A stretch of 64,000 bases of DNA, taken from positions 2,034,836 to 2,098,835 of the forward strand of contig NZ_CP028858.1 in assembly GCF_003058365.1 (NCBI RefSeq), in the 5' to 3' direction. The stretch comes from Halococcoides cellulosivorans. Lineage in GTDB: Archaea; Halobacteriota; Halobacteria; Halobacteriales; Haloarculaceae. The position numbers were made by a program, and so were the translations under genes. The notes under the pieces are model-generated. The model saw nothing but the letters and a program-made list of their open reading frames with translations, searched no databases and had not been told where the DNA came from. Below, in pieces: positions 21,221 through 50,660 of the stretch. Within the stretch, counting starts at the first letter, position 1; each line of letters starts with the position of its first letter.

Positions 21221-23824
21221 TCAGACCATCTCGAACAGCGCGAGCACGTCCTGCTGGTCGAGGGTGCCGTCGCCCGTGAAGTCGTAGTACTCCAGATTGT
21301 CTTGCGCGACGCTCGAATCGGCGTTCTGGAACAGCCTGTTCACGTCGGGGAAGTTGAGCGTCCCGTCACCCGAGAGGTCCTCGTACAGGCCGTCACCGTC
21401 CGGATCGGTCGGTGCGTTCGGCCACGTCGGTCCGTCGGGCAGTGGGTCACCCTCGTCGCCCCCGACGACGAGGTCGGTCGCCGGATACGACCACCACGGC
21501 CCGTCGGCGGCGATCACGCCGATCTCGTAGGTCTGACCCGTATCGAGCCCACCGATCGTCGCGCTGGTCTCGGTCGTCGTCGTGACGACCCGATCGTCGA
21601 GTTCGACGAGGTACTCGTCGGCGTCCGCGACGGACGACCACTCGACCATGACGCTGGTGCCGTTGCCGTCCGTCGAGACCGTCGCGGGCGCGGGCGGGCG
21701 CAGAGAGTTCTCGGGCGTACTCGTCTGGCCGGGTTCGCGGCCCGCGACCTGATCGCCATCGTAGTACACCGGGAGGGTCTCGACGACGTCCACCTCCGAC
21801 CCGATGCCCTCGTGGCTGGGCGACGCAGCGGGATCCCAGCCGTCGACCCCGTAGGCCGCGATGGCGAAGCTGATCTCCTTGCGACCGCGGAAGGCGTGCC
21901 CCGAGTAGTCGAACTCGACGTAGTAGAGGCCGTCCTCGTCGGTGGGTTTCGGATCGCTCACCGCGACCGAATGCCCCTCCTGACTGCCGACCTGGTCGTA
22001 GGTCACGTCGAACGTGACGTCGTCGACCGTCCCCGACATCTCGGAGACGTCGAAGTAGTATCGGAAGCTCAGCCCGTCGACGCCTCGAGCCGGGTGGAAC
22101 AGTTCGCTGATGAGATAGGCTTTGTAGTCGATGCGGTTGCCGTCGTTGCGGTCGACGGCCGCCTCGACCCAGAACGCGTCCTCGTCGCGGCCCTCCGGCG
22201 GGAACTCACTGACCGGGAGCGGGTCGTCGGACCCGAACCGCTCGTAGAAGCCCGCGAGCGCGCCGACGAAGGCGGCGTTGTAGTCGCTGGTGACTTCGTT
22301 GAGCTTCCAGTCGTCCGTCTCGTCGACGTGATTGTCGCTGACGTCGGGCCCGCCGACGAGCGCGCCCCACAGCGTGTGGCGGTGCTCGACCGGATCGGTC
22401 GGATCGCCAGTCAGCGCACCGTGAGCGGTGTCGTGGTGTGGGTGGGAGGCGTAGTCGTCGGTGAAGCCGACGATCAGCGAGTAGTCGAACGGATTCGATC
22501 CCATGATATAACGCATCTGCCCTTTCGCCCACTCGACGAACCCGTCGTGATCGTTGTACTTGTCGTAGACCAGCGCGGACAGTTGCGCGGCGGCGTTGTA
22601 CCGGGCCGACCCCCACTCGCTGAGCCACGAGAAGCCCGCCGGGGTCGTCGTGATGTAACTGCCGCCGCCTGATTTGTGCTCGATGTCGCCACCCGACCAG
22701 AAGGCCAGATTCTGGTGGGCGAAATCCCACCACTTCTGATCGTCGGTGATCGCGCCCAGGCGGAGGAAGACGCCACCCCAGACGTTCTCCCAGCAGTGCA
22801 CCCAGTGGTTGTTCCAGTCGTCCGATTCGGTGCTCAGAATCGCGCTCAGGTGACCGGTGTACGACCCGCTGGCGTCAGTGCCGATGACGTCGTCGAGATA
22901 CTGGTCCTCGCCAGTCGCCTCGTGCAGCCACAGCGCGGCCCACGCCAGGTCGTCGGCGTCACTGGTCGAACCGTAGTACGGGGCGGCCGTGTCCGGCCTC
23001 CCCCGGTACTCGTCACCGAAGTCGTACAGCTTTCGGGCCGTCTCGACACACTCGGTCGCGAACTCCGGATCGCGGTCCTCGAACGCCAGCGAGACGACCG
23101 CCAGCGCGGCCGCCGCCTCACCGGCGCGGTCGCTCGCGGGATTGTCCGCCGTCGCGAAGTAGGCCGGACGGGGCGACGTCTCGGGATCCTGTAGCTCCGC
23201 AGGCCCCCAGTAGTTGTGGTCGAACCCGTCCCCACCGTTCGAGACCTGATAGGCAAAGGCGACGACCTCGCCGTCCGCGACGAACGTGTTCCCGAGGATG
23301 TACTCGGCGTACCGCCGGAGGTGATGGCGGATGTGGTCGTCGGTCTCGGTGTCCTCGAACGCGTCGGGGAACTCGTAGTACGCCCACCCGAGCGTCGAGG
23401 CCGTATAGAACGCCGGCAGGCCGAACTTCACGTGGTCACCGGCGTCGTGATACCCCCCCGCGAGGTCGACCGTCCCCGTCCCCTCGGGGTCGAGCACATC
23501 GCTGTACTCGTCGATGAATCCGCTAGAGAGTGTCGTTCCGCCCTCCTCGACGGCCGCGTCGAGCGGCACGGCAGTATCGGTCGTGTGACAGTCCCCGCGC
23601 CAGTCCAGGCGACTCTCCTCGCGGACGCCCGGACCGCACATGTTGGCGTCGTAGAAGTACAGCGACTTCTGCAGCGCCTCCGCGACGTTGTACCCCTCCA
23701 TCCCGGCGACCGGCGTGACCGCCGACCCCCCGATGGCCAGCGCGCCGAGTCCAGCGCCGGTCGTTCGAACGAACGTCCGTCGGTCGATGCCACTCCTGTC
23801 GGACGATTGCATGTTGTCTGTCAT
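21221..23824 (-). CDS. Tat-secreted GH9 cellulase with CBM3, FN3, dockerin-like end
   Basis: Endoglucanase- or cellobiohydrolase-type beta-1,4-glucanase of family GH9, exported by the twin-arginine route (DRRTFVRTTGAG). The catalytic domain spans about 45-555. Asp residues lie in YHDAGDHVKFG (near 127 and 130), a His motif in PHHDTAHG, and the probable acid Glu in KLNEVTSDYNA. A CBM3-like domain (FWVEAAVDRNDGNRIDYK, LSFRYYFDVSE), an FN3 domain (TVSTDGNGTSVMVEWSSV) and a C-terminal pair of F-hands follow. The F-hands are DLSGDGTLNFPDVNRLF and DFTGDGTLDQQDVLALF. The end matches that of the GH3 enzyme and of a giant surface protein. I use the ATG at 23824: a TATA-like ACAATAATC near 23851-23859 fits it better than the GTG at 23830. 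Confidence 0.94.
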   Translation of the reverse strand: MTDNMQSSDRSGIDRRTFVRTTGAGLGALAIGGSAVTPVAGMEGYNVAEALQKSLYFYDANMCGPGVREESRLDWRGDCHTTDTAVPLDAAVEEGGTTLSSGFIDEYSDVLDPEGTGTVDLAGGYHDAGDHVKFGLPAFYTASTLGWAYYEFPDAFEDTETDDHIRHHLRRYAEYILGNTFVADGEVVAFAYQVSNGGDGFDHNYWGPAELQDPETSPRPAYFATADNPASDRAGEAAAALAVVSLAFEDRDPEFATECVETARKLYDFGDEYRGRPDTAAPYYGSTSDADDLAWAALWLHEATGEDQYLDDVIGTDASGSYTGHLSAILSTESDDWNNHWVHCWENVWGGVFLRLGAITDDQKWWDFAHQNLAFWSGGDIEHKSGGGSYITTTPAGFSWLSEWGSARYNAAAQLSALVYDKYNDHDGFVEWAKGQMRYIMGSNPFDYSLIVGFTDDYASHPHHDTAHGALTGDPTDPVEHRHTLWGALVGGPDVSDNHVDETDDWKLNEVTSDYNAAFVGALAGFYERFGSDDPLPVSEFPPEGRDEDAFWVEAAVDRNDGNRIDYKAYLISELFHPARGVDGLSFRYYFDVSEMSGTVDDVTFDVTYDQVGSQEGHSVAVSDPKPTDEDGLYYVEFDYSGHAFRGRKEISFAIAAYGVDGWDPAASPSHEGIGSEVDVVETLPVYYDGDQVAGREPGQTSTPENSLRPPAPATVSTDGNGTSVMVEWSSVADADEYLVELDDRVVTTTTETSATIGGLDTGQTYEIGVIAADGPWWSYPATDLVVGGDEGDPLPDGPTWPNAPTDPDGDGLYEDLSGDGTLNFPDVNRLFQNADSSVAQDNLEYYDFTGDGTLDQQDVLALFEMV

Positions 23825-23898
23825 GTCCACCCCGGGACCGTCCCCGTTGGATTATTGTAGCACCTCCGCGATGATAAGAATTCGCGTCCGCGCCCGCA

Positions 23899-23931
23899 CG
23901 CACGACACAAATTGTCGCGCTATGTCGTGCG
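23899..23931. promoter_or_regulatory. Perfect inverted repeat between GH3 and GH9
   Basis: CGCACGACA and TGTCGTGCG, nine bases each, separated by 15 bases. It lies between the stop of GH3 (23943) and the promoter of GH9. It could be a regulator binding site for the cellulase or a terminator-like hairpin for GH3. It lacks the T-run of a classic terminator. Confidence 0.45.
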
Positions 23932-23942
23932 ATCGGCAGCGA

Positions 23943-26222
23943 TCAGACCGCCTCGAACAGCGCGAGCACGTCCTGTTGGTCGACGATGGCGTCGCCCGTG
24001 AGGTCGTACGCACCGACGTGGTCCTGGACCGCGGCGGAGTCGGTCTGCTGGAAGAAGCGGTTGACGTCCGGGAAGTCGAGTTTACCGTTCGCGTTGAAGT
24101 CCTCGTGGATGCCGTCGCCGTCGATATCGCGAGGCACGACCCCGTCGACTGGCGTCAAGCCGCTCTCCCCGACCGCGATATCGACGGTCTCGCGAACGTC
24201 CCGAGAGGACGCCCCGACGTGAATCCGGAACTGGCCGTCATCGACGGCCCACGCGCGAGCGTCCGGGTCGAAATACGCGAACGCCGAGCGATCGAGATCG
24301 ATCTCGACTGTCGTCGCCGTCCCCGGGTCGAGACGGACTTTCTGGAAGCCCGAGAGTTCTTTCGGCGGGCGCTCGACCGCCGGGTCGCGCTCCTCGACGT
24401 ACACCTGGACGACCTCGCTGCCCGCGACCGACCCGGTGTTGGTCACTTCGACGGAGACCGTCGCGCGATCCTCGGTCGTCGGGTCGTATCCTGCGGGCGC
24501 GTCGACCACCTCGATCGCGAACTCCGTATACGAGAGGCCGTGCCCGAACGGATAGAGCGGGTCGACGCCCGCCGCGTCGAAGTGTCGATAGCCGACGAAC
24601 ACGCCTTCGTCGAAGTGGACCCGATCGTTCTCGCCCGGGTACTGCCGCTGCTCGGAGACGGGGTAATCGTCGAAGGACTGTCCGAACGTCGTCGGGAGTT
24701 TCCCGCCCGGGTCGCAGTCCCCGAAGACGACGTTCGCCGTCGCGGTGCCGTCCTCCATGCCCGGATACCACATCGAGAGCACCCCGTCGACGTCGTCGAC
24801 CCACGGCATCACGATCGGCCCCGGAATGTGCACGACCGCGACGGTGGGCCCACTCGACGCGGCCTGCTGGATCAATTCGTCGTCACGCCGTTCGAGGTGC
24901 ATGTCCGAGCGATCCTCGAACTCCGAAGAGTACACCTGGCCAAAGGCCAGTGTGACGTCGGCCTCGCTCGCGACCCGGGCCGCCGAACTCGGATCGCGAC
25001 CCGTCCGGATCTCCGCGCGCCCGTCGACGAACTCCTGGATGCCCTCCAGCGGACTGACGGTATCGGCCGGCGTGACCTCCGCCGCGCCGCCACCGCCCAC
25101 GAGCGCGTCGTCGATCGCACGCCCGACGACGCCGATCCGATCGACCGCGTCGGGATCGATGGGCAGCGCGCCGTCGTTTTTCAGCAGTGTCGCACCTTCT
25201 TCAGCGATCTCACGGGCGAGGTCCCGATGGGCGGTCGTGTTGCGTTCGCCCGGGCCGATCGACCCGTCGAGATGGCCCGTCTCGGCAAACGCCGTGAGGA
25301 CCCGTGTGACCATCTCGTCGAGCTGTGATTCGGGCACCTCGCCGTTCTCGACCGCACGGCGAAGGTCAGCCCCGTAATACTCGTCTTCCCACATCTCGAC
25401 GTCCTGGCCCGCGAGCGCGCTGTCGACGGTACTGCCCATCGCGCCCCAGTCCGAGACGACGAAGCCCTCGAATCCCCATTCGTCTTTCAGCACGTCCGAG
25501 AGGAGAACCTCGTGTTCGGTGCAGTACGTGCCGTTGACCCGGTTGTACGCCGACATCATCGAGAGCGCGCCCGCCTCGACGGTCGCCCGGTAGCCCGGGA
25601 GATAGATCTCACGAAGCGCGCGCTCGCTCACCTCGGAACTGACGTACTTGCGGCGTGTCTCCTGGGTGTTCGCCGCGAAGTGTTTCGGCGTCGCGACGAC
25701 GTCTTCGGACTGGATCCCGCGCGTGCTCGCGGCCGCCATCGCGGCAGTGAGCAACGGATCTTCGCTGTAGTACTCGAAGTTGCGCCCACAGACGGGCACG
25801 CGCTGGATGTTCAACGCTGGCCCGAGCAGTTGGTGGGCATCGACCGCTTTGGCCTCCCGACCCATCGCCCGACCCTGTCGTTCCATCAACTCGGGATCGA
25901 ACGACGCCGCGGCGGCGATCGACGCCGGAAACGCGGTCATCGGGGTCTCGGATTCGGTCCGAACGCCGACCGGCCCGTCGAACATTCTGATCCCCGGAAT
26001 GCCAAGGTCGTGCAGTGGCGCGATCCACCCCGTCGCGTCTCTTTTGTCGTGGCCGTGCACCATGTGGACCTTCTGGTCGATCGACATCTTATCGACCAAG
26101 CCGGATACCTGGGTCGCGCCCGCCGCGAGGCCGCTCGACCCCGCCGCGATGGCGGCGAGCGTTCCCAGTACGCGTCGGCGTGTCACACTCTGCGGTCCGT
26201 CGTCCCCCGATCGGTCAGTCAT
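23943..26222 (-). CDS. Tat-secreted GH3 beta-glucosidase with dockerin-like end
   Basis: A 759-residue GH3 glycosidase that would release glucose, or another terminal sugar, from cello-oligomers outside the cell. The Tat signal is TRRRVLGTLAAIAAG. GH3 N-terminal landmarks are IRMFDGPVGVR, the KHF motif in ATPKHFAANTQETRRKY, and the nucleophile Asp258 in VVSDWGAMGS. The C-terminal domain (WYPGMEDGTATANVVFGD, YPFGHGLSYTEF) and an FN3-like domain follow. The last about 60 residues are the dockerin-like pair (DFNANGKLDFPDVNRFF, DLTGDAIVDQQDVLALF). The gene is just upstream of GH9 on the same strand, and the two could act in sequence on cellulose. Confidence 0.94.
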   Translation of the reverse strand: MTDRSGDDGPQSVTRRRVLGTLAAIAAGSSGLAAGATQVSGLVDKMSIDQKVHMVHGHDKRDATGWIAPLHDLGIPGIRMFDGPVGVRTESETPMTAFPASIAAAASFDPELMERQGRAMGREAKAVDAHQLLGPALNIQRVPVCGRNFEYYSEDPLLTAAMAAASTRGIQSEDVVATPKHFAANTQETRRKYVSSEVSERALREIYLPGYRATVEAGALSMMSAYNRVNGTYCTEHEVLLSDVLKDEWGFEGFVVSDWGAMGSTVDSALAGQDVEMWEDEYYGADLRRAVENGEVPESQLDEMVTRVLTAFAETGHLDGSIGPGERNTTAHRDLAREIAEEGATLLKNDGALPIDPDAVDRIGVVGRAIDDALVGGGGAAEVTPADTVSPLEGIQEFVDGRAEIRTGRDPSSAARVASEADVTLAFGQVYSSEFEDRSDMHLERRDDELIQQAASSGPTVAVVHIPGPIVMPWVDDVDGVLSMWYPGMEDGTATANVVFGDCDPGGKLPTTFGQSFDDYPVSEQRQYPGENDRVHFDEGVFVGYRHFDAAGVDPLYPFGHGLSYTEFAIEVVDAPAGYDPTTEDRATVSVEVTNTGSVAGSEVVQVYVEERDPAVERPPKELSGFQKVRLDPGTATTVEIDLDRSAFAYFDPDARAWAVDDGQFRIHVGASSRDVRETVDIAVGESGLTPVDGVVPRDIDGDGIHEDFNANGKLDFPDVNRFFQQTDSAAVQDHVGAYDLTGDAIVDQQDVLALFEAV

Positions 26223-26344
26223 GCCTGAGAGTCCCTGTCACTGACGGTCGGACGCCGTCAGCGATGATCGAAGATTACGTTCTTATTTCGCATTAAAATT
26301 TTCGTCGGTCGAGGGTCGAAAATGGGGAAAACCGCGTCGTGTCG

Positions 26345-29062
26345 CTACCGCCGGTAGATCAGCACGCCAGCAGCAGCGACGAGGACGACGACGATCAGCA
26401 GCGGCAGGACGAATCCACCACTGCTGTCTTCGGGCGGCTCACCGCCACCAGCCTGCGTGGTGGTCGGTTCGTCGGTCGGCTCGTCGGTCGTCGGCTCGTC
26501 GGTCGTCGGTTCGTCAGTCTCGGGTTCGTCGGTCTCCGAGTCGTCGTCGGAGGGAACCGGCGTCTGGACCGCGCCACCCGAATCGTCGTCGGGTTCGTCG
26601 GGCGTGATCGGAACGCGATCGTTCCCACCGGTCGGGGGCGAGCCACTGCCGTCCTCGGTGTCGGTGGGTTCGGGTTCGGTCACCGAGAGCGTCCCGGTGG
26701 CCGAGGCACTGCGGTCGGCCCCGTCCTGGGCCACCGCGTCGAGCGTCCACGTGCCCGCCGCGGCGTCCGAGGGCGCCGAGAGCGTGACGTTGATCGTCAC
26801 GCTCCGGTTCTCGGACCAGGTCCACCCGATCTTCTGGGCGTCGTCGACCGTCCCGACCTGGGGCGTCCCGTCCGCGTCGTCGTAGGCTTCGATCGTCCAG
26901 TCGGACGGAATGCCCGACAGCGTGAGCACGCCCGTGTTCTCGGTGGTCAGCGAAAGCGTCATGTTCTCGCCAGCCAGCGCGCTGGCGTTCGAGACGCTCA
27001 CGGACGGCCCGGTCGGAGTCGCCTCCTCGACGGTGATCGTCCCGGTGGCAGTCGCCGTCAGATCGTCGGCGTTGGCCGCTTCCGCGGTCAACACCGTCTC
27101 ACCGAGCGCAGCGTCCTCGGGGATCGTCATCGTGATCGACACCGAGCGGTTGTCGTTTTGATCCCAGGCCCACGCGATCTTCCGGGCCCCGTCGGCAGTG
27201 TCGACCACCGTCGTGGCACCGTTCTCGTCGTACTCGTCGATCGTCCAGTTGTTCTGGATCCCTGCCAGCGAGAGCAGGCCCGTGTTCTCGGCGGTCACGT
27301 CGACCGTCACCGTCTCGCCCGGTGCGACCGTGCCGTTCGTGACGCTCACGCTCGGCTCGACCGGCTCAGGCCCGGCCTCTTCGACGGTGATCGTGCCGGT
27401 GGAAGTCGCCATCGCGTCGTCGGTGTCTTCGGCTACTGCAGTGAGGTCCGTCTCACCGAGCGTCGCGTCGTCGGGGATCGACAGCGTGACCGACACCGTG
27501 CGGTCGTCGTCCTGATCCCACGCCCAACCGATCTTCTGAGCACCGTCGACCGTGCCAACCACCGGTGACCCGCCCGCGTCGTCGTAGGAGTCGATCTCCC
27601 ACGCGGTCGGGATACCCGCCAGCGACAGCACGCCCGTGTTCTCGGCGGTCACGTCGACCGTCACCGTCTCGCCCGGTGCGACCGTACCGTCCGTCACGCT
27701 CACCGACGGTCCGGGCTCCGTGCCGGCGTCTTCGACGGTGAGTTGACCGTCCTCGGTCCCGGAGATAGCCGACTCCCCGGTCCGACGGTCGCTCGTGACC
27801 TCGACGTCGGACAGCGAGAGGGCCACGGTGCCGTCAACGTCCGCTGCGGCCTGCAGGTCGACGGTCGCGAGGACGACCTGCGAGTCGGTCTCGTTGATCG
27901 CTCCGGCCTCGTCAGCGACGCTCAGAGTCGCATTGCTGCCGTCGGAAGCGACCGATTTGCTGACGAACTGCGGATCGACCTCGCCCACCGCGTGATTCAC
28001 GTCGGTGATCGTCGCGAGCGAGGTATCAGAGGTGTCGACGGTGAAGCCGAACCCGGAGACCCCCATGGGCGCGCTGTCCATGACGATCTGTGCCGTCGTG
28101 GTCTCACCCGCGGTGACGTTCCCAGCGACGACCCGAAGCGGAACCTGCTCGCCCGGTTCCGGCGTGGTCGTCGTCGATTCGGTGACCGCGACCGTCCCGG
28201 TGGCAGTCACCGTCTCGTCGTCCAAACTGCTCGCTTCTCCGGTGAGGTCCGTCTCACCGGGTGCCGCGTCGTCGGGGATCGACAGCGTGACCGAGACCGA
28301 TCGGTCGTCGTCCTGATCCCACGTCCAGCCGATCTTCTGGGCGCCGTCGACCGTCCCGTCTTGCGGCGTCCCGCCCGCCGTGTCGTAGGAGTCGATCTCC
28401 CACGCGGTCGGGATACCCGACAGCGAGAGTACGCCAGCGTTCTCGGCGGTCACGTCGACCGTCACCGTCTCGCCCGGTGCGACCGATCCGTCCGTCACGC
28501 TCACGCTCGGCGCGTCGGGCGCAGCAGTCGTCGGTTCCGGTTCGATCGTCGACTCCGGCGGCGTCTCCGTCGGGTCCGGCGTCGGCGTCGTCTCCGGTTC
28601 AGTCGTCGGTTCCGTCCCCTCGACGCTGACCGACACCGTCGAAGAGATCATCCCACCCTTGTATCGTTCGAGTTCGAGTGGGAACTCGTACGTCCCGCCC
28701 GCGTCCGCGGGCACGTCGAAGACGACCCAGTCCGTCCCGGTGTTATTGGAGGCCCGGACCCAGCCGACGCTCTGATAGCTCTCGCCATCGGGCGATTTCG
28801 TCACGACACCGCCCGAGTCGTCCGCGACCGTCCAGGAGTTGGGCACCTCCCTGATGTTCACACCCGACGCGTTCTCGTAGGTGACCGATACGTTCACTTG
28901 TCCGCCCGGTTCGACCGATAGCTGGTCGGTGTGATCGACGAGTGTCGGTGTCTCTTCGGCAGCCACGAGGCCGACGCCCGCAGAGGCTCCGACCGCGACG
29001 AGGACGACCGCAAGTGCAACGAGTCCCGTCCGTAATCGCCTGTTCGGTGAATTAGAAATCAT
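26345..29062 (-). CDS. Membrane-anchored cohesin-like scaffold protein
   Basis: A 905-residue surface protein. It has a signal peptide (1-35) and a divergent N-terminal beta-module (38-149). Four near-identical modules of about 110 residues follow (185-295, 451-561, 569-680 and 685-796), each with APGETVTVDVTAEN and GIPTAWEIDSY. The domain at 306-445 is cohesin-like: VPLRVVAGNVTAGETTTAQ, MGVSGFGFTVDTSDTSLATI, and a closing VALSLSDVEV. A Pro/Thr/Asp/Glu linker (797-880) leads to a C-terminal helix, FVLPLLIVVVLVAAAGVLIYRR, which would hold it in the membrane. The layout fits an anchoring scaffoldin. The start lies 38 bp after the stop of the 669-residue scaffold gene, so the two are probably co-transcribed. 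Confidence 0.82.
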   Translation of the reverse strand: MISNSPNRRLRTGLVALAVVLVAVGASAGVGLVAAEETPTLVDHTDQLSVEPGGQVNVSVTYENASGVNIREVPNSWTVADDSGGVVTKSPDGESYQSVGWVRASNNTGTDWVVFDVPADAGGTYEFPLELERYKGGMISSTVSVSVEGTEPTTEPETTPTPDPTETPPESTIEPEPTTAAPDAPSVSVTDGSVAPGETVTVDVTAENAGVLSLSGIPTAWEIDSYDTAGGTPQDGTVDGAQKIGWTWDQDDDRSVSVTLSIPDDAAPGETDLTGEASSLDDETVTATGTVAVTESTTTTPEPGEQVPLRVVAGNVTAGETTTAQIVMDSAPMGVSGFGFTVDTSDTSLATITDVNHAVGEVDPQFVSKSVASDGSNATLSVADEAGAINETDSQVVLATVDLQAAADVDGTVALSLSDVEVTSDRRTGESAISGTEDGQLTVEDAGTEPGPSVSVTDGTVAPGETVTVDVTAENTGVLSLAGIPTAWEIDSYDDAGGSPVVGTVDGAQKIGWAWDQDDDRTVSVTLSIPDDATLGETDLTAVAEDTDDAMATSTGTITVEEAGPEPVEPSVSVTNGTVAPGETVTVDVTAENTGLLSLAGIQNNWTIDEYDENGATTVVDTADGARKIAWAWDQNDNRSVSITMTIPEDAALGETVLTAEAANADDLTATATGTITVEEATPTGPSVSVSNASALAGENMTLSLTTENTGVLTLSGIPSDWTIEAYDDADGTPQVGTVDDAQKIGWTWSENRSVTINVTLSAPSDAAAGTWTLDAVAQDGADRSASATGTLSVTEPEPTDTEDGSGSPPTGGNDRVPITPDEPDDDSGGAVQTPVPSDDDSETDEPETDEPTTDEPTTDEPTDEPTTTQAGGGEPPEDSSGGFVLPLLIVVVLVAAAGVLIYRR

Positions 29063-29100
29063 GTGTGGAGGGTGATTAATTGGCTTTCACAGCGGTGAGA

Positions 29101-31110
29101 TCAGAAGAAGTACGCCCTCATCACAGTGACAGCGTCTTCGAGCGAGATGTCACCAATCAGGTAGTCACCCTTGGCCTCCATGACTTCGGAGGGCTGGAGC
29201 TCGTCTTTGGGCTCTTTGATCTGCATGTACTGCTCGACGATGCCAGGTTCCGGATCGGTCGGCGTCGGTTCCGGATCGGTCGGCGTCGGTTCCGGATCGG
29301 TCGGCGTCGGGTCGGTGCCCTCGACCGTGAGCTGACCGTCCTCGGTCCCGGAGATAGCCGACTCACCGGTCCGACGGTCGCTCGTGACCATCGCGTCGGA
29401 CAGCGACAGCGTCACGGTACCGTCGGCGTCGGCGGCCTGCAGGTCGACGGTCGCGAGGACGACCTGCGATTCGGACTCACCGACCACTTTGTTGGTGTCT
29501 CCGACTTTCAGGAAGGCACTGCTGCCGTCGGAGGCGACCGTTTTGTCGACGAAGTCCGGATCGGTCTCGCTCAGAGCGGGACTCACGTCGGAGATCGTCG
29601 CGAGCGAGGTGTCGGAGACCTCGACGGTGAAGTCGAACCCGGAGACACCCATGGGCGCGCTGTCCATGACGACCTCCGCGGTCGTGGTCTCGCCAGCGGA
29701 CACGCTGCCGGCGACGACCCGCAGCGGAACCTGATCGAGCGGGGTCTCCGTCGTGGTCTCTTCGGGCGTGGGCTCCTCGGTCGTCGTCTCTTCGGGCGTG
29801 CCGTCGGAGATCGTCGCCGTCCCGAAGCCGGGCGCGAGGTCGATCTCGTCACCGTCGCTGTTCTGCAGTGTGCCGATCTCGGTCGAGAGCGAGGCCGTCC
29901 CGCTGCCCGTGCTCACGAGGTTGACCGTCGCCAGTTCGACGTCGGTCGCACCCGCACCGAACTCGCCGGCCGAGTCGCTCGCCTTGATCGTGACCGCCGA
30001 CGCGTCCGATGAGACACTCGTGGAGCTGACAGTGGAGAACGCCGACGGGTACGTCGCGGAGTCCGTTCCGCGCCCGGTGGCGACCTCGACGACGCTCGTG
30101 TCGCTGAGCGAGACAGTCATCTCGTACCCCGAGAGCCCGTTCGGCGCTTCGGTCAGCGTCAGGGTCGCGCCGTAGCCCGAGTCGGTCTCGGCCAGGTCGA
30201 CGTCGATCGTCGGCATGTCGACGGACCCGTCTGTCGTCGTCTCCGTCTCCGTCGGCGTTTCAGTATCCGTCGGCGTTTCAGTATCCGTCGGCGTTTCAGT
30301 ATCCGTCGGCGTTTCAGTATCCGTCGGCGTTTCAGTATCCGTCGGCGTTTCAGTATCCGTCGGCGTTTCAGTATCCGTCGGCGTCTGGTCAGGGCCGATG
30401 ACCTCGGTGGACGTGGACCCGGACTCGTTCGTCAGCATCATCGACTCGACGGTGTACGTGCTCTCGTCGTACCCACCCTTGTAGGCGTCGTCGAGGTCGG
30501 CCGGATACTCCCAACTCGTCTTCGTGGACCCATCGGGCGCCGAGGAGAGGTTGTTGACCTCGACACCGATGTTGGCGGTCCCCGTTCCCGCGTGGTTGAC
30601 CGTGAACTCCACCATCTCGATGCCCGTGTCGCCGGGCCAGATCTCGTAGCCGAAGTCGAGCGTTCGACCGGACACACTCCCCGGCCCGTCGATCGTCACG
30701 AACGGCGACGATGTGTCGTCAGTGTTGTATTCTCCCCAGAGCTTGCCGAGGTCGATCGGATCGGAGTCCTCGTTGATCGTGACCGACGAGAAGACGAACT
30801 CCTCGTCGATGGTCGCCACGTCGGTGTCGTCCGACGTGAAGGTGAGGTTGAAACCGGCGAGGCCAGCGGGCGCGTGCGAGAGTTCGACCTGCACCGTCGT
30901 CGAACCCCCGGTACCCTCCTGAACGACCGTCGGAGTCAGTTCGACGGTCGGTTTCTCGGCGCCGCTGACGGTCGAGACAGCTGCCGTGCCCCCAATGGTC
31001 AGCAGTGCCCCCGCACCGGCTGTCGTCTTCAAGAACTCGCGACGGTTCTGTCGCGAGCCGCGTTCGGGTGTCTGTTCCACAGAATCGATCGACTGAGTTT
31101 GTTCTGTCAT
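29101..31110 (-). CDS. Tat-secreted protein with three cohesin-like domains
   Basis: A 669-residue surface protein. A twin-arginine signal (QNRREFLKTTAGAGALL) is followed by three cohesin-like beta domains at about 52-226, 297-434 and 460-598. The third is nearly identical to the cohesin-like domain of the 905-residue protein (VPLRVVAG, ETTTAEVVMDSAPMGVSGF). The first two are more divergent but keep the alternating hydrophobic pattern (HAPAGLAGFNLTF, APNGLSGYEMTVSL). A TPTDTE repeat linker joins domains 1 and 2, and Pro/Thr/Asp linkers join the others. The C-terminus (ELQPSEVMEAKGDYLIGD) is the tail shared with three giant surface proteins. It resembles an adaptor scaffoldin, which would bind enzymes through its cohesins and another partner through its tail. 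Confidence 0.8.
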   Translation of the reverse strand: MTEQTQSIDSVEQTPERGSRQNRREFLKTTAGAGALLTIGGTAAVSTVSGAEKPTVELTPTVVQEGTGGSTTVQVELSHAPAGLAGFNLTFTSDDTDVATIDEEFVFSSVTINEDSDPIDLGKLWGEYNTDDTSSPFVTIDGPGSVSGRTLDFGYEIWPGDTGIEMVEFTVNHAGTGTANIGVEVNNLSSAPDGSTKTSWEYPADLDDAYKGGYDESTYTVESMMLTNESGSTSTEVIGPDQTPTDTETPTDTETPTDTETPTDTETPTDTETPTDTETPTDTETPTETETTTDGSVDMPTIDVDLAETDSGYGATLTLTEAPNGLSGYEMTVSLSDTSVVEVATGRGTDSATYPSAFSTVSSTSVSSDASAVTIKASDSAGEFGAGATDVELATVNLVSTGSGTASLSTEIGTLQNSDGDEIDLAPGFGTATISDGTPEETTTEEPTPEETTTETPLDQVPLRVVAGSVSAGETTTAEVVMDSAPMGVSGFDFTVEVSDTSLATISDVSPALSETDPDFVDKTVASDGSSAFLKVGDTNKVVGESESQVVLATVDLQAADADGTVTLSLSDAMVTSDRRTGESAISGTEDGQLTVEGTDPTPTDPEPTPTDPEPTPTDPEPGIVEQYMQIKEPKDELQPSEVMEAKGDYLIGDISLEDAVTVMRAYFF
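30251..30376 (-). repeat. Seven perfect 18-bp tandem repeats
   Basis: Seven exact copies of GTCGGCGTTTCAGTATCC (plus strand) encode a run of TPTDTE in the linker between cohesin-like domains 1 and 2. Perfect nucleotide identity, including synonymous positions, means recent expansion. Copy number is likely to vary between strains and would change linker length. Confidence 0.95.
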
Positions 31111-43644: not shown

Positions 43645-46600
43645 TCAGACCATCTCGAACAGCGCGAGCACGTCCTGTAGACCGACGACACCGTCACCGT
43701 CGAAATCGAAATACTGGACGTTGTTCTGGACGGCGTCCGACGTGGTGTTCTGGAACAGTGCGTTCACGTCGGGGAAGTTCAGGTCACCGTCGCCCGAGAC
43801 GTCTTCGTACAGGCCGTCGCCGTCGGGGTCGGTCGGGGCCGGGTCGGTCGGCCAGTCGAGGCCGGACGAGACGGTCGCACGCTCCGAGACCGGCGATCCG
43901 TCGGCGTTCTCGTAGGCCCCGTCGCCGTCGTACTGTTCGTTCCCGTTCGCGTCGGTGTGGGCGACGGCGTAGACCGTCTCGCCCTCGCTGACCCCATCGA
44001 CGGGGATTTCGACACCGGAGTGGTGACCGGGATCGAGATATCCGGAGACACCGGCGAATGAACCGGTGGCGCTGCCAGTCTTGACGACCACGAAGCCACC
44101 CTCGGACAGATTGACGCCCTCGACCGTGACGGTGTCCGCTGTCGTCGTCACACCATCGAAGGCAGCCACCGGACGGCCGATTTCGTCCTCGTACGCCGCG
44201 TAGACATCCGGTTCGATCACCGAGACGGTGTATTCCTGTCCGCGGGATCCATCAGAGAAGTCGACCTGACCCGACCAGGTCCCGTCGGCCTGGACGGTCG
44301 CGGTGAACTCAGTCTCTACCGAGGGCGAATACGGCGTCGACTGAGACTCCAGGGCAATCGTTAGCTCCGTTCCGGGGGCGAAATTTGTGGTCCCGGAGAT
44401 GGTCTGACCCGGGGCCGCAGAGACGTCATTCTGGTCGAACTCGACGGTCGGGGACTCCATTTCGAAGGCCTGCTCGACGGTCACGTCGTTCTCGTCGGAC
44501 GTCGCGAGAGTGTCGGTAGTGTCACCAGCGTTGACGGTGAACGTCGGGACGCGCTGGTCACCGTCTGCGACGCCGTCGAAGGCCGACGTGTCCATCAGGA
44601 CGTACAGCGTGCCGTCGTCCTGGTTCGGAATGACCGTCAGAGCAGCCGTGTTGGCCGACAGGTTGACGGTGTTGTCTTCGTACATATTACTGACGCCTTC
44701 CTCGACCGTGAAGTTCAGACTGTCCACGTTCTCGTCGAGAGAGATCAACATCTCTGCGTACGTGTTTCCGGGCTGAGCTTCGAGCGCACCGAAGATACCC
44801 GTCGCTTCGAGTTCGGCGACCGCGTAGTCGCCCTCGGTGATGAGTCGACTCTCGGTGAGGTGATCCTCGGAAATAGCGGTTGCGACATCATCGGCAGTCT
44901 CGATGTCGGCATCGTTTGGGGCCGTCCAGACGTTCATCCCGGTCGTCGTTCGCGGCTCGACGTTCAGTCTGCCGACACCATACTCGCCTACGAAGCGGTC
45001 TCCACTGGCGTTGTACGCCTCGTGGACAGCCACTGTGTAAGCGTACGAGCGCTCGAGTCCAGTCCCGAGTGCACCACTGAAGGTCCCATACTGATCGTCG
45101 AACCTCCGAACCTCGTCGGCACCGATCGCCTCGATTCCACTGCTCTCGAGAGTATCGGCGGCAGCGGTGAACGTATTCACGCGTAGCGTAACCTGCCCGT
45201 CGCCATCAACGTCTTCGACACGGACGACGCGTTCCCAGCCCGCGTACTCACTCCCGAGACGGACCGAGACACGGTCGTTGTCGCCCACTTCGATCGGGAT
45301 CGTCGCGACATCGCCCTTAGCGACCGTCGCATTCTCGACGGCGAGTGAGCCCGATCCGGGAGCCAGTCTCGTCCGGTCGGTCACCCTGAATGTATCCGTC
45401 TGGACCGCCGCGGCAGGTTCTTCGAGCCGAGGGACAAACACACTCTCCTCTGGAATCGCGAATTCGAAGAGCGAATCGCCCGAGAGCGACCTGGCCTCGG
45501 GGTCCATCACCACATAGACTGTCTCGTTGTCGTAATCCGTGGCAACGTGTGCCCCGTCGGATTCGAGATCGATCCGATCGTCGACCGGATTCGTGACGTC
45601 GGCCCGCTTCGGCCCGAATTCGACGACATCGTCAGCGACGAGTGACGCGAACCGATCGGCGGTAGTCTCACCGTCAGCAGCTCGAATCGCTCCCTCCAGC
45701 CCGGAGGCTTCGATCTTCACGACCGCCGTTCGATTCTCGAGAGTCGGCCATTCTTTGACCCGTCTCTCCGGACGGGAAGACTCGACTGCCGACACCGAAT
45801 CGAGTGTCACGCTGGTCGGCGTCGTCCACATCGACAGGTCGTGAGTGCTGCGCTCGTAGACGCGCATGACCGTGCTGTCAGTGTCCCCGCCGAGTTCGTA
45901 GTTGCTTGTGTCGAAGGTGCTGCCCGCACGAACGTCGTGGCTCTTTGCGCCGCCACCGACGAGGACAGGCTCGTCGAAGTCCGAGCTGTTGTACCAGACG
46001 TTCTCGACGGAGTCGTCGTCGTCAGCCGTCCAGAACTTATCGTCCATGCTCGCGTCGTGGTCGAGCATGTTGTAGGTGTTGGCTTCGAGGATGACCTCAC
46101 CGTCGTCACTCCCGTCGTTGACTTCGACGATGGTTCGGAAACCGGCACCGTCCATCCTCCCGATCGCGACGTACGCGGTGTCGGTCGAATCGAGTTCGAC
46201 CGGGATCGACGCGACGTCACCACGGTCGACGTCGGACGTGTCCGGCAGTTCGACACTCGCAGTAGATTCGATCGTGACCGATGCGGTGTCTGTGGCAGCC
46301 GAATCGACCACGTCGAACGTGAACGTGTACTCGCCAGGGGCGACATCACTCGCCTCGACGTCGGCGTCCAGCGAACCCCCGGAGACGTTGACAGTCGTGC
46401 CGCCGAAAATGCGCTCGATTTCGGCGTCAGTCGCATCGGGTGAGGAGATCTCGACAGAGTAGATGGCTCGATTGGAGGTCAGCGTCATCGAAGCAGTCTC
46501 GCCGGTCGTGACGCTGTCCTCGTCGAACGACGTCGAGAGCCCCTGATCGACCACCGAGAACGACGCGTCCGAGACGCTCGCGTCCTCGGACGCGTCCCCA

Positions 46601-47610
46601 TCCGCATCGAACGCGAAGAGGTCGGTCTTGGTCCGTCCGATCACGTACTCGCCCTGGCCGCCGATATCGGTCTCGGTGTCGAGAAGTCGAGTCCCGTCCG
46701 CGTCGATCAGGACCTCGGAGACCAGCGTGCCGACGGTATCGTCCTCGACGGTGTAGATCCGAACGACGTCGTCCGACCCGCTGGCGACCGACCCGCTGTC
46801 GAAAGAGACGGTCTGACCGGTCCAATACCGTTGGCCCGACGTCAGGAAGCGCGCCGCTGCGACCTCGTCGGTGGAGGGTTCGACCGTAATCGAGACGGTC
46901 GCGGACGCAGACGTGTCGGTCACGTCGAAGGTGAACGAGTAGTCGCCGGGGTCGAGCCCGGAGAGGTCGGCGTTCAGATCGTCAGTATTCGACAGCCCGG
47001 TCACCGTGATGGTGTCGTCGTTCCCGATGACGGCGTCACCATTGCCCGCGAAGATACTCGCGAGTTCAGCCGACGATACATCGTTCGCGGAGATATCGAG
47101 GTCGAAGCCCGCCCGGTTGGTGGAGATGTCTATGGTCGTGCTCTCGCCGTTCTCTAGAACACTGTCGCTTGCAGACGCCGTGAAGGCCTGAGAAAGCACG
47201 CTGAACTCGCTGTCAGTGACGCTCCCGCTGGCCGTCACCGCTCCGTCGGTGAACTGGACGGCCGTGCCCGTCTCGTTCGTGACGACGAACGAGTTCGAAT
47301 CGTGGTCTGTCAGATCGGCCGTGTCGATCAAGGCCGCTCCAGATGCGTCGAGGGCAATCTCGGTCACGAAGTCGCCCCACTCGCCGTCCTCGCTCGTAAA
47401 CACGGCCCAGGTGGCGTTCGCGTGCTCGGTGGGGTCCGCGTCGATCCGGACCGTCTGCCCCTCCCAGTACACCTGCCCACTCGTCAGATTCGCGTCCGCG
47501 TCAGTCTCGTCGACGGCCGTCGCATCGGCCGCCGCCGGTGTCGCGGCCACGCCCGCTCCGATCACCGCGAGTGCGACCAAAGCGATCATCGCCCACCGCC
47601 GGCCGCTCAT
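43645..47610 (-). CDS. Giant surface protein 1, dockerin-like end
   Basis: A 1321-residue secreted protein. The signal peptide (MIALVALAVIGAGVAATPAAA) is followed by two large beta-modules (41-245 and 255-448), each opening LTSGQxYWxGQTV, which resemble haloarchaeal S-layer surface modules. Then come several modules of the type DRGDVASIPVELDSTDTAYV and ANTYNMLD or VNTFTAAADT, and a DUF7282-like domain (GGFVVVKTGSATGSFAGVSG). The C-terminus is the double F-hand dockerin-like domain (VSGDGDLNFPDVNALF, DFDGDGVVGLQDVLALF), the same type as in GH9 and GH3. Everything but the two N-terminal modules and the tail is paralogous to the next giant. NxS/T sites are frequent. Confidence 0.85.
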   Translation of the reverse strand: MSGRRWAMIALVALAVIGAGVAATPAAADATAVDETDADANLTSGQVYWEGQTVRIDADPTEHANATWAVFTSEDGEWGDFVTEIALDASGAALIDTADLTDHDSNSFVVTNETGTAVQFTDGAVTASGSVTDSEFSVLSQAFTASASDSVLENGESTTIDISTNRAGFDLDISANDVSSAELASIFAGNGDAVIGNDDTITVTGLSNTDDLNADLSGLDPGDYSFTFDVTDTSASATVSITVEPSTDEVAAARFLTSGQRYWTGQTVSFDSGSVASGSDDVVRIYTVEDDTVGTLVSEVLIDADGTRLLDTETDIGGQGEYVIGRTKTDLFAFDADGDASEDASVSDASFSVVDQGLSTSFDEDSVTTGETASMTLTSNRAIYSVEISSPDATDAEIERIFGGTTVNVSGGSLDADVEASDVAPGEYTFTFDVVDSAATDTASVTIESTASVELPDTSDVDRGDVASIPVELDSTDTAYVAIGRMDGAGFRTIVEVNDGSDDGEVILEANTYNMLDHDASMDDKFWTADDDDSVENVWYNSSDFDEPVLVGGGAKSHDVRAGSTFDTSNYELGGDTDSTVMRVYERSTHDLSMWTTPTSVTLDSVSAVESSRPERRVKEWPTLENRTAVVKIEASGLEGAIRAADGETTADRFASLVADDVVEFGPKRADVTNPVDDRIDLESDGAHVATDYDNETVYVVMDPEARSLSGDSLFEFAIPEESVFVPRLEEPAAAVQTDTFRVTDRTRLAPGSGSLAVENATVAKGDVATIPIEVGDNDRVSVRLGSEYAGWERVVRVEDVDGDGQVTLRVNTFTAAADTLESSGIEAIGADEVRRFDDQYGTFSGALGTGLERSYAYTVAVHEAYNASGDRFVGEYGVGRLNVEPRTTTGMNVWTAPNDADIETADDVATAISEDHLTESRLITEGDYAVAELEATGIFGALEAQPGNTYAEMLISLDENVDSLNFTVEEGVSNMYEDNTVNLSANTAALTVIPNQDDGTLYVLMDTSAFDGVADGDQRVPTFTVNAGDTTDTLATSDENDVTVEQAFEMESPTVEFDQNDVSAAPGQTISGTTNFAPGTELTIALESQSTPYSPSVETEFTATVQADGTWSGQVDFSDGSRGQEYTVSVIEPDVYAAYEDEIGRPVAAFDGVTTTADTVTVEGVNLSEGGFVVVKTGSATGSFAGVSGYLDPGHHSGVEIPVDGVSEGETVYAVAHTDANGNEQYDGDGAYENADGSPVSERATVSSGLDWPTDPAPTDPDGDGLYEDVSGDGDLNFPDVNALFQNTTSDAVQNNVQYFDFDGDGVVGLQDVLALFEMV

Positions 47611-47678
47611 GAGCGATCACCCAGTCTCTCGGTTTCCAGTCTTCGCGCCGATTCGTCTGTTGGGGAACACAACTCCAT
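47607..47678 (-). CDS. Leader mini-ORF of giant gene 1
   Basis: A 23-codon ORF, peptide MELCSPTDESARRLETER followed by LGDRS. Its TGA overlaps the ATG of giant gene 1 (ATGA). A GGTGAT Shine-Dalgarno-like sequence sits five bases before that ATG. A TATA-like GAATTATGAG is about 31 bp before the mini-ORF's ATG, so transcription would begin almost at it. The peptide is conserved with the one before giant gene 2. Confidence 0.7.
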   Translation of the reverse strand: MELCSPTDESARRLETERLGDRS

Positions 47679-47745
47679 GTGGACTATTGGTCACGCCAAG
47701 AGACTCATAATTCTATCGGTACTCCTGGAAAACGATTCGGCCAGA
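47640..47745 (-). promoter_or_regulatory. Duplicated promoter of giant gene 1
   Basis: About 100 bp nearly identical to 50510-50605, including TCGTTTTC, GGAGTACCG, the TATA-like GAATTATG and GTCTCTT, and then the mini-ORF start with TTGTGTTCCCCAACAG. It suggests a recent tandem duplication that kept the control region. Confidence 0.7.
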
Positions 47746-47798
47746 GTGTGACAAACTACACGCGGGCGTCGGTATCGGGCCAGTGCGGCGGGCCACAG

Positions 47799-50471
47799 TC
47801 ACCCGAAGAAGTACGCCTGCATCACTGCGACGACGGTCGCGAGATCGGTCTCATCAGCCAGGTAATCGCCTTTCGCAGTCATCACCGCCGACGGCGACAG
47901 TTCGTCGGTCGGGGTCGCGAGACTCCGGTAGTAGTCGACGTCCCGGACCGACGAGACCGTCATCGAGTCGGAGACGCGTGATCCGTCGGCGTTCGTGTAG
48001 GCCCCGTCGCCGTCGTACTGTTCGTTGCCGTTGTCGTCGGTGTGGGCGACGGCGTACACCGTCTCGCCCTCGCTGACGCCAGATACCGGGATCTCGACGT
48101 CGTAACTCAGACCGGGTTCGAGATAGCCCGAGACACCGGCGAACGACCCGGTGGCGCTACCGGACTTGACGACGACGAAGCCACCCTCGGACAGTTCGAC
48201 GCTCTCGATCGTGATCCTGTCCGCGGTCGTCTCCGCGGCCGAAATCGACGCCGTCAGACGACCGATCTCCCCGTCGTATGAGGCAGCGAGGTCGGGGTCG
48301 AGGACCCACACCGAATAGCCCTGTCCGTCGTAGCCCTCGGAGAGGTCGGCCTGGCCGGACCAGGTCCCGTCGGCCTGGACGGTCGCGGTGAACTGCTCGA
48401 TGAACGCCGACTCCGAATCCGGAGTGAGCTCAGACTCGACGACGAGCGTCAACTCCGTCCCGGGCGCGAGATTGGACACCCCAGAGATGGTCTGGCCCGC
48501 CGCCGGGGAGACCTCGTTGTGATCGAAGTCGACCTCGGGGGCGTCGATCTCGAAGGCCTCCTCGGAAGTCACGTCGTCGGTCTCCGAGGTCGCGAGGGTC
48601 TCGGTCGTGTCACCGGCGTTGACGGTGAACGTCGGGACGCGCTGGTCGCCGTCTTCGAGGCCGAGCACAGCGGTGTCGATCACGACGAACAGTCGTCCGT
48701 CCGCCTGGTTCGGGATCACCGTCAGCGCGTCCGCGTTCGCGGCGAGGTCCAGCGTGTTGTCACCGTATTCGGGGAGGACTGCCGGATTCACGATCGAGAC
48801 GTTCAGGCTGCTGACGTTCTCGTCGAGCGAGGCGAGTTTCTCGACGTTCGAACTCCCGGGCTGGGCTTCGAGCGCTCCGAAAATGCCCGTTGCCCGGAGT
48901 TCAGCGACTGCGTAGTCACCCTCAGCGATGAACTGGCTCTTGGTGAGTCTGTCGGTCGCGATGGCGTCCGTGATGTCCCTGGAGGTTGCGATTTCGTCAC
49001 CGTCGGGCGCGGTCCAGATGTCGACCCCCGTCGTGGTTCGCTGCTCGACGATCATCCTTCCAGTACCGTACGCGCCACTGAAGCTGTCCGTGGTCTCATC
49101 GTACTCTTCGTGTACCGCGACTGTGTAGGCGTACCCACCGTTAGACCCGATCCCGAGCGGGCTAGCGAAGGTGTTGGACTGGTCTTGAACCTCCAGGACA
49201 TCGTCCCCATCAGTCGCCTGGATCGCTCCGCGATCGGGTGAGTCGGTAGCGGCGGTGAACGTGTTCACCCGCAGGTCGATCTGCCCGTCGCCGTCACCGT
49301 CCTCGACGCGTACGACGCGTTCCCAGCCCTCATACTCGCTCCCGAGCCGGACCGAGACACGGTCATTGTCCCCCACTTCGAGCGAGATCGTCGCGATGTC
49401 GCCCCGAGCGACGGTCGCGTTGTCCACTGCGAGCGAGCCCGAGCCGGGGGCCAGCCTGGACCGGTCGGTCACCGAAAACGATGACGTCTCGACGGCGGTT
49501 CGACCGGTAGTGGCGATCGGACTCCCCTCAGGGACGGCGAACTCGAACACCGAATCGCCCGAGAGCGATCGTGCGTCGGGGTCCAGCACGACGTAGAGTC
49601 TCCCCACATCGGGATCAGTGACGACGCGCGCCCCGTCGGATTCGAGATCGATCCGATCGTCGACCGGGTTGGTGACGTCAGCACGTTTTGGCCCGAACTC
49701 GACGACGCCGTCATCGACGAGCGACGCGAAGCGATCGGCGGTAGTCTCGCCCTCGGCGGCTCGAATCGCTCCCTCCAGTCCGGAAGCTTCGATTTCCACG
49801 ACCGCCGTTTGATTCTCGATGGACTGGGGCTGTTCGGGCGTCCCGTCCGCACGAGCGTCCTGAATCGCCGACGGCGAATCGAGGGGCTCAGTAGTGGATG
49901 CAGTCCAGATGCTCACGCCGCCCGTGTGTCGCTCCTGAACGCGCATGACAGAACGATCAGTGTCGCCAGTGAGTTCCGCCCCAGTGGAGTTCCAGCCGCT
50001 CCCAGCACGGAGAGCATAGCTCCACGCGTCGTTGCTTCCCACCCGCAGGGGTTCGTCGTAGGTCGTCATCACGCCGTCATGATCGACGAACGTGACGGAG
50101 TCCGCGTCGTCTGCGGTCCAGTAGCGGTCGTCGTTGGAGGTGTTGAGGAGGGAGTACGTATTGGCCTCGATCGTGACGTCGCCGTCGCTATTTCCGTCCT
50201 CGACTTTCACGATCGCGCGGAAGCCCTCAACGTCCTCACTGCCGATCGTGACGTAGCCAGTATCTGTCCCGTCGAGTTCGACCAGGATGGAGGCGACGTC
50301 ACCCCGGTCGACGGTGACAGCGGACAGCGCGACGACAGTCTCGTTCGACTCGATCGTGGTTGCCTCGGCGGTCGAATCGGCCGCTGCCGGCGTCGCAGCC
50401 ACACCGGCACCGATCACCGCGCACGCGACCAGCGCGATCAGTGCCCAGCGCCGACCCGAACCGCCACTCAC
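47799..50471 (-). CDS. Giant surface protein 2, KGDYL tail
   Basis: An 890-residue secreted protein that starts with GTG and a signal peptide (RRWALIALVACAVIGAGVAAT). It repeats the module type of giant 1 (VDRGDVASILVELDGTDTGYV, EANTYSLLN, ARGDIATISLEVGDNDRVSV, RVNTFTAATD) and the DUF7282-like domain (GGFVVVKSGSATGSFAGVSG). It then switches to a different end: TDELSPSAVMTAKGDYLAD ending VMQAYFFG. It is a paralogue of giant 1 over most of its length but lacks the two S-layer-like N-terminal modules and has the other tail type. The function is unknown. Confidence 0.83.
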   Translation of the reverse strand: MSGGSGRRWALIALVACAVIGAGVAATPAAADSTAEATTIESNETVVALSAVTVDRGDVASILVELDGTDTGYVTIGSEDVEGFRAIVKVEDGNSDGDVTIEANTYSLLNTSNDDRYWTADDADSVTFVDHDGVMTTYDEPLRVGSNDAWSYALRAGSGWNSTGAELTGDTDRSVMRVQERHTGGVSIWTASTTEPLDSPSAIQDARADGTPEQPQSIENQTAVVEIEASGLEGAIRAAEGETTADRFASLVDDGVVEFGPKRADVTNPVDDRIDLESDGARVVTDPDVGRLYVVLDPDARSLSGDSVFEFAVPEGSPIATTGRTAVETSSFSVTDRSRLAPGSGSLAVDNATVARGDIATISLEVGDNDRVSVRLGSEYEGWERVVRVEDGDGDGQIDLRVNTFTAATDSPDRGAIQATDGDDVLEVQDQSNTFASPLGIGSNGGYAYTVAVHEEYDETTDSFSGAYGTGRMIVEQRTTTGVDIWTAPDGDEIATSRDITDAIATDRLTKSQFIAEGDYAVAELRATGIFGALEAQPGSSNVEKLASLDENVSSLNVSIVNPAVLPEYGDNTLDLAANADALTVIPNQADGRLFVVIDTAVLGLEDGDQRVPTFTVNAGDTTETLATSETDDVTSEEAFEIDAPEVDFDHNEVSPAAGQTISGVSNLAPGTELTLVVESELTPDSESAFIEQFTATVQADGTWSGQADLSEGYDGQGYSVWVLDPDLAASYDGEIGRLTASISAAETTADRITIESVELSEGGFVVVKSGSATGSFAGVSGYLEPGLSYDVEIPVSGVSEGETVYAVAHTDDNGNEQYDGDGAYTNADGSRVSDSMTVSSVRDVDYYRSLATPTDELSPSAVMTAKGDYLADETDLATVVAVMQAYFFG

Positions 50472-50539
50472 GAGCGATCACCGCGAACCACTGGATCCGG
50501 TCTCCGCATCGACTCCTCTGTTGGGGAACACAACTCCAT
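50468..50539 (-). CDS. Leader mini-ORF of giant gene 2
   Basis: A 23-codon ORF, peptide MELCSPTEESMRRPDPVV followed by RGDRS, aligned without gaps to the giant-1 leader. Several differences are synonymous (GAA/GAG, CGA/CGG, TCA/TCG). Its TGA overlaps the GTG start of giant gene 2 (GTGA), with GGTGAT five bases ahead. A GAATTATGGG TATA-like element sits about 32 bp upstream of its ATG. Confidence 0.7.
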   Translation of the reverse strand: MELCSPTEESMRRPDPVVRGDRS

Positions 50540-50605
50540 ACTACCTATTGATCACGTAAAGAGACCCATAATTCTGCCGGTACTCCGAGAAAACGATCGA
50601 TCCAA
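50510..50605 (-). promoter_or_regulatory. Duplicated promoter of giant gene 2
   Basis: Counterpart of the block at 47640-47745, conserved from the AT-rich TATA region through the beginning of the mini-ORF. TGTTGGGGAACACAACTCCAT is identical in both copies and contains a TGTT-GGGG-AACA inverted repeat that could be an operator. Confidence 0.65.
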
Positions 50606-50660
50606 ACGGCGAAAACTACGTTGGGGCGCAGGGTCTAGGCCACAGCGGCGTGACCCATGT

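Follow-up and report, generated by a model that had tools for sequence, protein, structure and literature searches.

Four co-directional genes on the minus strand of Halococcoides cellulosivorans, at positions 21221-31110 of the window (by which we mean the whole 64,000-nucleotide stretch of DNA that was analyzed), probably specify parts of a cellulosome-like system in haloarchaea, a reading to which we assign a probability of about 0.8. The open reading frame list gives their order as P0004, P0003, GH3, and GH9, with intergenic gaps of approximately 38, 122, and 112 nt. In the system that we propose, a GH9 cellulase and a GH3 exo-glycosidase would be exported by the Tat pathway, each with a C-terminal calcium-loop dockerin, and these dockerins would bind to cohesins on the secreted and membrane-anchored scaffoldins P0004 and P0003, presumably in a calcium-dependent manner at molar salt. 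Many different enzymes would thereby be gathered on the cell surface. The complex would be held on the cellulose fiber by the CBM-like domain of a further scaffoldin, L054 (C1:381.6-383.9 kb), and may contribute to growth on cellulose; the individual cohesin-dockerin pairs considered below are likewise predictions.

Enzymes and cohesin proteins of the locus

The GH9 enzyme (21221..23830, minus strand) combines a Tat signal with CBM3, fn3, and dockerin domains and matches Pfam PF00759 GH9 (E = 7.3e-117) and CBM_3 (E = 2.1e-8). The GH3 enzyme (23943..26222, minus strand) has a Tat signal, an Fn3-like domain, and a dockerin, with Pfam matches to the GH3 N and C domains of 1.4e-47 and 4.9e-46. In both proteins a double F-hand dockerin forms the exact C-terminal end (GH9, 21224..21406; GH3, 23946..24128; both minus strand), and both domains show the features of a type I dockerin, namely, two F-hand calcium loops, a length of approximately 60 aa, and a family match. 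The GH9 dockerin was recognized by the own-genome dockerin HMM (E = 1e-30) and by PF00404, with 24.0 bits in the genome scan, which is above the cut-off, and 18.7 bits in hmmscan. The GH3 dockerin matched the own-genome HMM (E = 4e-27) and the haloarchaeal dockerin profile (E = 3.3e-27) but had no PF00404 match in the Pfam scan, being recognized only by the haloarchaeal HMMs. An HMM built from 68 dockerins, all from other genomes, retrieved both domains (GH9, 7.8e-21; GH3, 2e-17) and matched none of 200 shuffled control proteins. Pfam and the HMMs from other genomes thus bear out an earlier note on this DNA, which had described secreted GH9 and GH3 enzymes on one strand, each ending in a dockerin-like domain; the PF00404 comparison that it proposed holds for the GH9 domain and misses the GH3 domain. 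A third dockerin of the window, of the enzyme type (43648-43830), ends a DUF7827/DUF7282 surface protein (43645..47610, minus strand).

Upstream of the enzymes lie the two cohesin-bearing surface proteins, one Tat-secreted and one membrane-anchored, that the note had recognized. P0004 (29101..31110, minus strand), a scaffoldin candidate, has a Tat signal and three cohesins identified by HMM, and P0003 (26345..29062, minus strand), a candidate anchoring scaffoldin, carries a single cohesin together with five Nis1-like repeats and ends in a membrane helix (26345..26425, minus strand; GGFVLPLLIVVVLVAAAGVLIYRR), in which a hydrophobic stretch is followed by RR. A cohesin HMM built from 60 domains of other genomes, which matched 0 of 200 shuffled proteins, recognized P0004 cohesin 1 (30499..30954; E = 1.6e-12), cohesin 2 (29803..30231; E = 3.9e-24), and cohesin 3 (29317..29733; E = 4.2e-22), as well as the P0003 cohesin (27728..28147; E = 3.8e-19), all on the minus strand. 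Together, the HMMs from other genomes return exactly four cohesins and two dockerins in the four-gene locus. The PGETVTVDV repeats of P0003, of which there are five, were considered as further cohesins and ruled out by an hhalign probability of 3%. Ig-like repeats of the form PGETVTVDVTAENxGxLSLxGIPxxW are common to both anchored cohesin proteins, P0003 and L085; Nis1 is their only Pfam match, and its meaning is uncertain.

In a tree of cohesins, P0004 cohesin 1 is the most divergent and sits on a long branch, cohesin 2 groups with the cohesins of the anchored protein L085 (C1:2256162-2261180; SH-aLRT 95), and cohesin 3 branches together with its P0003 counterpart (76% identity; SH-aLRT 97). 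The latter two stand by themselves in the tree, separate from the cohesins of the scaffoldin L054. The three cohesins of P0004 are therefore of three different kinds, and the protein may gather ligands of differing specificity; since the four cohesins of the window are of several kinds, perhaps not all of them accept the enzyme dockerin. P0004 had been proposed as an adaptor scaffoldin. However, it lacks a dockerin, and its 48-aa tail, considered as a candidate for one, was unrecognized by the dockerin HMM, so that P0004 is no adaptor as the term is normally used and looks more like a scaffoldin that is either cell-free or tethered by its tail. The sequence of P0003 fits an anchoring scaffoldin.

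Structure comparison had been set beforehand as the test of cohesin identity, and its outcome supports the assignment. The AlphaFold (AF2) model of P0004 cohesin 3 reached a pLDDT of 93.4 and a pTM of 0.87, and its best 50 PDB fold matches were all cohesins, the majority cellulosomal and one from Archaeoglobus (2xdh), with E values as low as 1.1e-10 and TM scores reaching 0.78. This model carries the fold assignment for cohesin 3, and HMMs carry that for P0004 cohesins 1 and 2 and the P0003 cohesin. In searches of the PDB by sequence, a profile of 14 own-genome cohesins gave weak CBM2-type matches only; it was superseded by a profile of 33 haloarchaeal domains, whose top match was the Ruminococcus flavefaciens ScaC cohesin 5lxv_A (5.3e-5). 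The dockerin part of a cohesin-dockerin profile matched 5lxv_B and several clostridial dockerins in the PDB, in addition to other EF-hand proteins. Neither Pfam PF00963 nor NCBIfam gave a cohesin match in any of the four window cohesins, so the PF00963 comparison that the note proposed misses all four, and one paralogue elsewhere in the genome, L065, matches PF00963 weakly (E = 0.017 to 0.049). A model of a natural cohesin-dockerin fusion (pTM 0.74) had good domains and no clear interface between them.

A dispersed system across the genome

The genome consists of one contig of 2,723,120 bp, in which PF00404 marks 69 places (E up to 1) and the haloarchaeal dockerin profile marks 70. Open reading frames were taken from the stretches around the profile matches, and in 64 of the 69 analyzed the dockerin is exactly C-terminal. 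Of 74 proteins with a dockerin or a cohesin, approximately 60 have a Tat-like start according to a simple pattern. Pfam analysis of 62 such proteins identified GH5 (22), GH10 (5), GH9 (3), GH43 (2), and esterase (2) domains, with CBM6, CBM3, CBM35, fn3, and lectin domains as accessory modules; many enzymes for plant polysaccharides thus bear dockerins, as is expected of a cellulosome. Dockerins are present on 19 of the 21 GH5 genes (E 1e-5) and on all three GH9 genes. The dockerin consensus reads DGDGLYEDLSGDGxLNFPDVNxLFQ...YDFxGDGxVDxQDVLALFExV, and its FPDVN, FQ, and QDVLALFE elements, which lie outside the calcium loops, are nearly invariant across 62 proteins with unrelated bodies, which is what a shared binding face would predict.

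The four window domains, used as queries, led to approximately 11 more cohesins, giving approximately 15 in the genome. L054 is a CipA-like scaffoldin with a Tat signal, a CBM-like domain, three cohesins, and a divergent dockerin. L085 and L079 carry two cohesins and one cohesin, respectively, each with a weak PGF-CTERM, and the Glug-repeat proteins L089 and L091 carry two and one, respectively, plus a dockerin. Multi-cohesin proteins therefore comprise P0004 and L054, with three domains each, and L085 and L089, with two each. As judged from sequence, candidate anchoring cohesins are provided by P0003 through its membrane helix, by L079 and L085 through the weak PGF-CTERM, and by the L157, L163, and L165 neighbors. 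The secreted protein L065 (C1:1020720-1022420) joins a cohesin to an enzyme-type dockerin and could chain enzymes together; its N-terminal domain resembles that of a dockerin-bearing neighbor, which is GH12-like by eye only. The note had taken the four genes of the window as a minimal, self-contained cellulosome set, and they form instead a small part of this dispersed, genome-wide system. A second, different cohesin-dockerin type occurs in the same genome: at L083 (C1:2196186-2198362), a beta-helix-cohesin protein with a canonical dockerin adjoins a protein with a cohesin and a membrane helix, and the cohesins of this pair are recognized by Pfam.

Among the dockerins of haloarchaeal type in this genome, those of L054 and L091 diverge furthest: their mean identity to the enzyme dockerins is 0.44 and 0.46, respectively, versus a median of 0.65. 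Bacterial scaffoldins avoid docking to themselves by means of a divergent dockerin, as is established for types I and II. By analogy, the divergence of the L054 and L091 dockerins would match this pattern of self-docking avoidance.

Recurrence in other haloarchaea and alternative readings

Cohesins of the haloarchaeal type were found in 153 of 391 Halobacteria genomes (approximately 35 to 40%). Their usual form is an adjacent gene pair encoding a cohesin-dockerin protein of approximately 900 aa and a single-cohesin membrane protein of approximately 260 aa (L095-L155), a conserved pair that is apparently not linked to cellulose. Cluster-type loci also occur, most of which are adjoined by a membrane-anchored single cohesin and have dockerin enzymes nearby; related loci were gathered with a GH5 alignment. 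Natronoglomus mannanivorans (G344) has a scaffoldin of the form GH5-Coh8-CBM-like, an adjoining anchored cohesin, and a run of dockerin enzymes; Natronobiforma cellulositropha (G103) has a GH5 protein with at least five cohesins that is truncated at the end of its contig, an anchored cohesin, and 47 dockerins; and Halovivax sp. KZCA124 has a scaffoldin with ten cohesins. In G264, which belongs to the same family as Halococcoides, a protein with a CBM-like domain, five cohesins, and a dockerin is followed by GH5-cohesin-dockerin and GH5-dockerin genes (GH5 assigned by eye), and smaller cluster-type loci are present in G321, G061, and G307. The CBM-like domain is similar by eye on the scaffoldins of three genera, with weak CBM_11 matches in two (E = 0.006 to 0.02) and no Pfam match in L054. 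Six GH5 loci of Halosimplex, Halocatena, and HArc-gm2 had neither dockerin nor cohesin within the flanks examined, and dockerins are therefore no general feature of haloarchaeal GH5 genes.

Among 56 evenly drawn genomes, 15 have both domains, 37 have neither, and 2 have only dockerins and 2 only cohesins, a co-occurrence that is partly built in, because the class-wide fusion protein carries both. Dockerin and cohesin counts in these genomes correlate with a rho of 0.86, and a cohesin-dockerin mirror comparison across seven genomes gave an r of 0.65, both values uncorrected for phylogeny. Dockerins share 62 to 85% identity within a genome versus 36 to 64% between genomes, and scaffoldin cohesins cluster by genome in the tree. 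On balance, we lean toward the broader view that haloarchaea possess true cellulosomes. These would represent a separate cohesin-dockerin type working at approximately 4 M salt that arose when an ancient archaeal surface pair expanded in two or more lineages, among them the Halococcoides family and that of Natronoglomus and Natronobiforma. Recognition would be specific to each genome, and the dockerins would fall into an enzyme class and a scaffoldin class.

The dockerins might instead tether enzymes one by one to the cell surface or S-layer through single-cohesin anchors such as P0003, L079, and L085, without multi-enzyme scaffolding, which would make this a surface display system instead of a cellulosome. 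One of the window cohesin proteins is such an anchor, and across the class cohesins occur mostly as the pair described above. H. cellulosivorans HArcel1 was isolated on cellulose (PMC4569967, PMC10267330), and HArcel1 and its sister strains colonize the fibers, grow optimally at 3.5 to 4.5 M NaCl, and show activity on insoluble cellulose solely with the cells and CMC activity in both fractions (PMC4569967). A surface-bound complex would give such cell-bound activity, and singly tethered enzymes would give it equally. We nevertheless regard single tethering as improbable, given the multi-cohesin scaffoldins of the same genome and the proteins with up to 10 cohesins that lie inside enzyme clusters in relatives. 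Less credible still is that the C-terminal domain serves to bind substrate and that the cohesin-like domains have an unrelated role in adhesion, even though the former reading has been published for Natronoglomus GH26 enzymes (PMC10963439, PMC13260240). The calcium-loop pairs are conserved, solved dockerins are among the sequence matches, and the cohesins are predicted by modeling to have a true cohesin fold. Moreover, one dockerin is common to enzymes for different polymers and to the surface protein at 43645-47610, which has no recognized catalytic domain, and dockerin numbers track cohesin numbers.

A variant that would still be a cellulosome concerns the pairing alone: P0003 and P0004 might bind the divergent scaffoldin dockerins of L054, L089, and L091, linking scaffold to surface only, while the window enzymes dock elsewhere. 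The private grouping of the P0003 cohesin with P0004 cohesin 3 and the divergence of the L054 and L091 dockerins both agree with this arrangement. However, P0003 and P0004 share an operon-like unit with two enzymes that carry the standard dockerin, and in G344, G321, and G307 the anchor and scaffoldin cohesins are of the same kind; we therefore treat the variant as a tentative minority possibility. 

Known systems and possible attachment modules

The arrangement resembles the cellulosome of Acetivibrio (Clostridium) thermocellum in that several cohesins and a divergent C-terminal dockerin are united on one scaffoldin (here in L054 and G264), together with a CBM or, here, a putative CBM-like domain, with tens of dockerin-bearing GH5, GH9, GH10, and GH43 enzymes and surface-anchored cohesin proteins. 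In contrast to that system, the one proposed in Halococcoides is archaeal and aerobic, would operate at approximately 4 M NaCl, and uses Tat export; its genes are scattered, and the scaffoldins of Natronoglomus and Natronobiforma bear a GH5 domain. The haloarchaeal anchors are a membrane helix or PGF-CTERM instead of SLH, the cohesins fall below Pfam recognition, and the CBM-like domain is not CBM3. R. flavefaciens ScaC complex 5lxv provides the best solved cohesin by sequence, and its partner dockerin was also matched, but identity in the fold alignments is 14 to 18% and the bacterial scaffold system is a different one. The non-cellulosomal Archaeoglobus fulgidus cohesin 2xdh shares the fold, being among the best 50 matches, whereas A. 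fulgidus is not known to have cellulases or a multi-cohesin scaffoldin. In its AF2375/AF2376 pair, one protein joins a cohesin to a dockerin and the other has a single cohesin, an arrangement that we take to resemble the class-wide haloarchaeal pair. In ANME archaea, proteins with a dockerin can carry as many as five cohesins (PMC9012536), so the mere presence of several cohesins on an archaeal protein is no novelty; however, these organisms are methanotrophs rather than polysaccharide degraders, and their dockerins are on ABC substrate-binding components (PMC9012536).

A literature search of openly accessible journal articles returned none joining cohesin, dockerin, and halophilic archaea, nor any naming an archaeal or haloarchaeal cellulosome, in agreement with the note, which knew of no described haloarchaeal cluster with GH9 and GH3. 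The archaeal cohesins and dockerins in the literature that we found had no link to cellulose, and papers on the cellulolytic haloarchaea HArcel1 and Natronoglomus leave cohesins unmentioned. A survey of cellulose use that includes HArcel1 mentions the cellulosome solely as a bacterial model (PMC10267330), and a recent genome survey places cellulosomes in anaerobic bacteria only (PMC11557425). HArcel1 and Natronobiforma, the "specialists" of the former survey (PMC10267330), have the most dockerins among the genomes scanned here. The Natronoglomus paper lists a "GH5/CBM6 endoglucanase, 1,755 aa" and an "S-layer glycoprotein, 258 aa" and reads the dockerins as substrate-binding. Judging from order and length, these two entries are probably the 8-cohesin scaffoldin and its anchor, which would correct the published annotation of both genes, along with the reading of the dockerin. 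If binding is confirmed, this would be the first described cellulosome in Archaea. Cellulosome architecture would then not be tied to anaerobic bacteria, the cell-bound activity on insoluble cellulose and little sugar leakage would be accounted for, and salt-proof cohesin-dockerin pairs would become available for enzyme assembly.

The 48-aa C-terminal tail of P0004 (29104..29247, minus strand) recurs at the C terminus of other secreted proteins of the genome. Its motif, PSAVMxAKGDYLxGxISLExAVTVMRAYFF, has eight matches in the own genome, four in the window (29104-29247, 47805-47939, 50667-50804, and 53541-53684) and four elsewhere (C1:1322315-1322416, C1:1290052-1290186, C1:2362116-2362220, and C1:40046-40180), and none in 193 other Halobacteria at an E value of 1e-3. 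Besides P0004, the bearers include three adjacent window surface proteins, a protein that is solute-binding-like by eye, and a GH5 cellulase, which is one of the two GH5 genes without a dockerin. The tail may be a lineage-specific attachment module or another kind of tether. The window region 43645-58121 (minus strand) encodes four adjacent large secreted surface proteins that are mutually similar by eye; three of these end in the tail and the fourth, at 43645-47610, ends in a dockerin, and tail and dockerin therefore look exchangeable.
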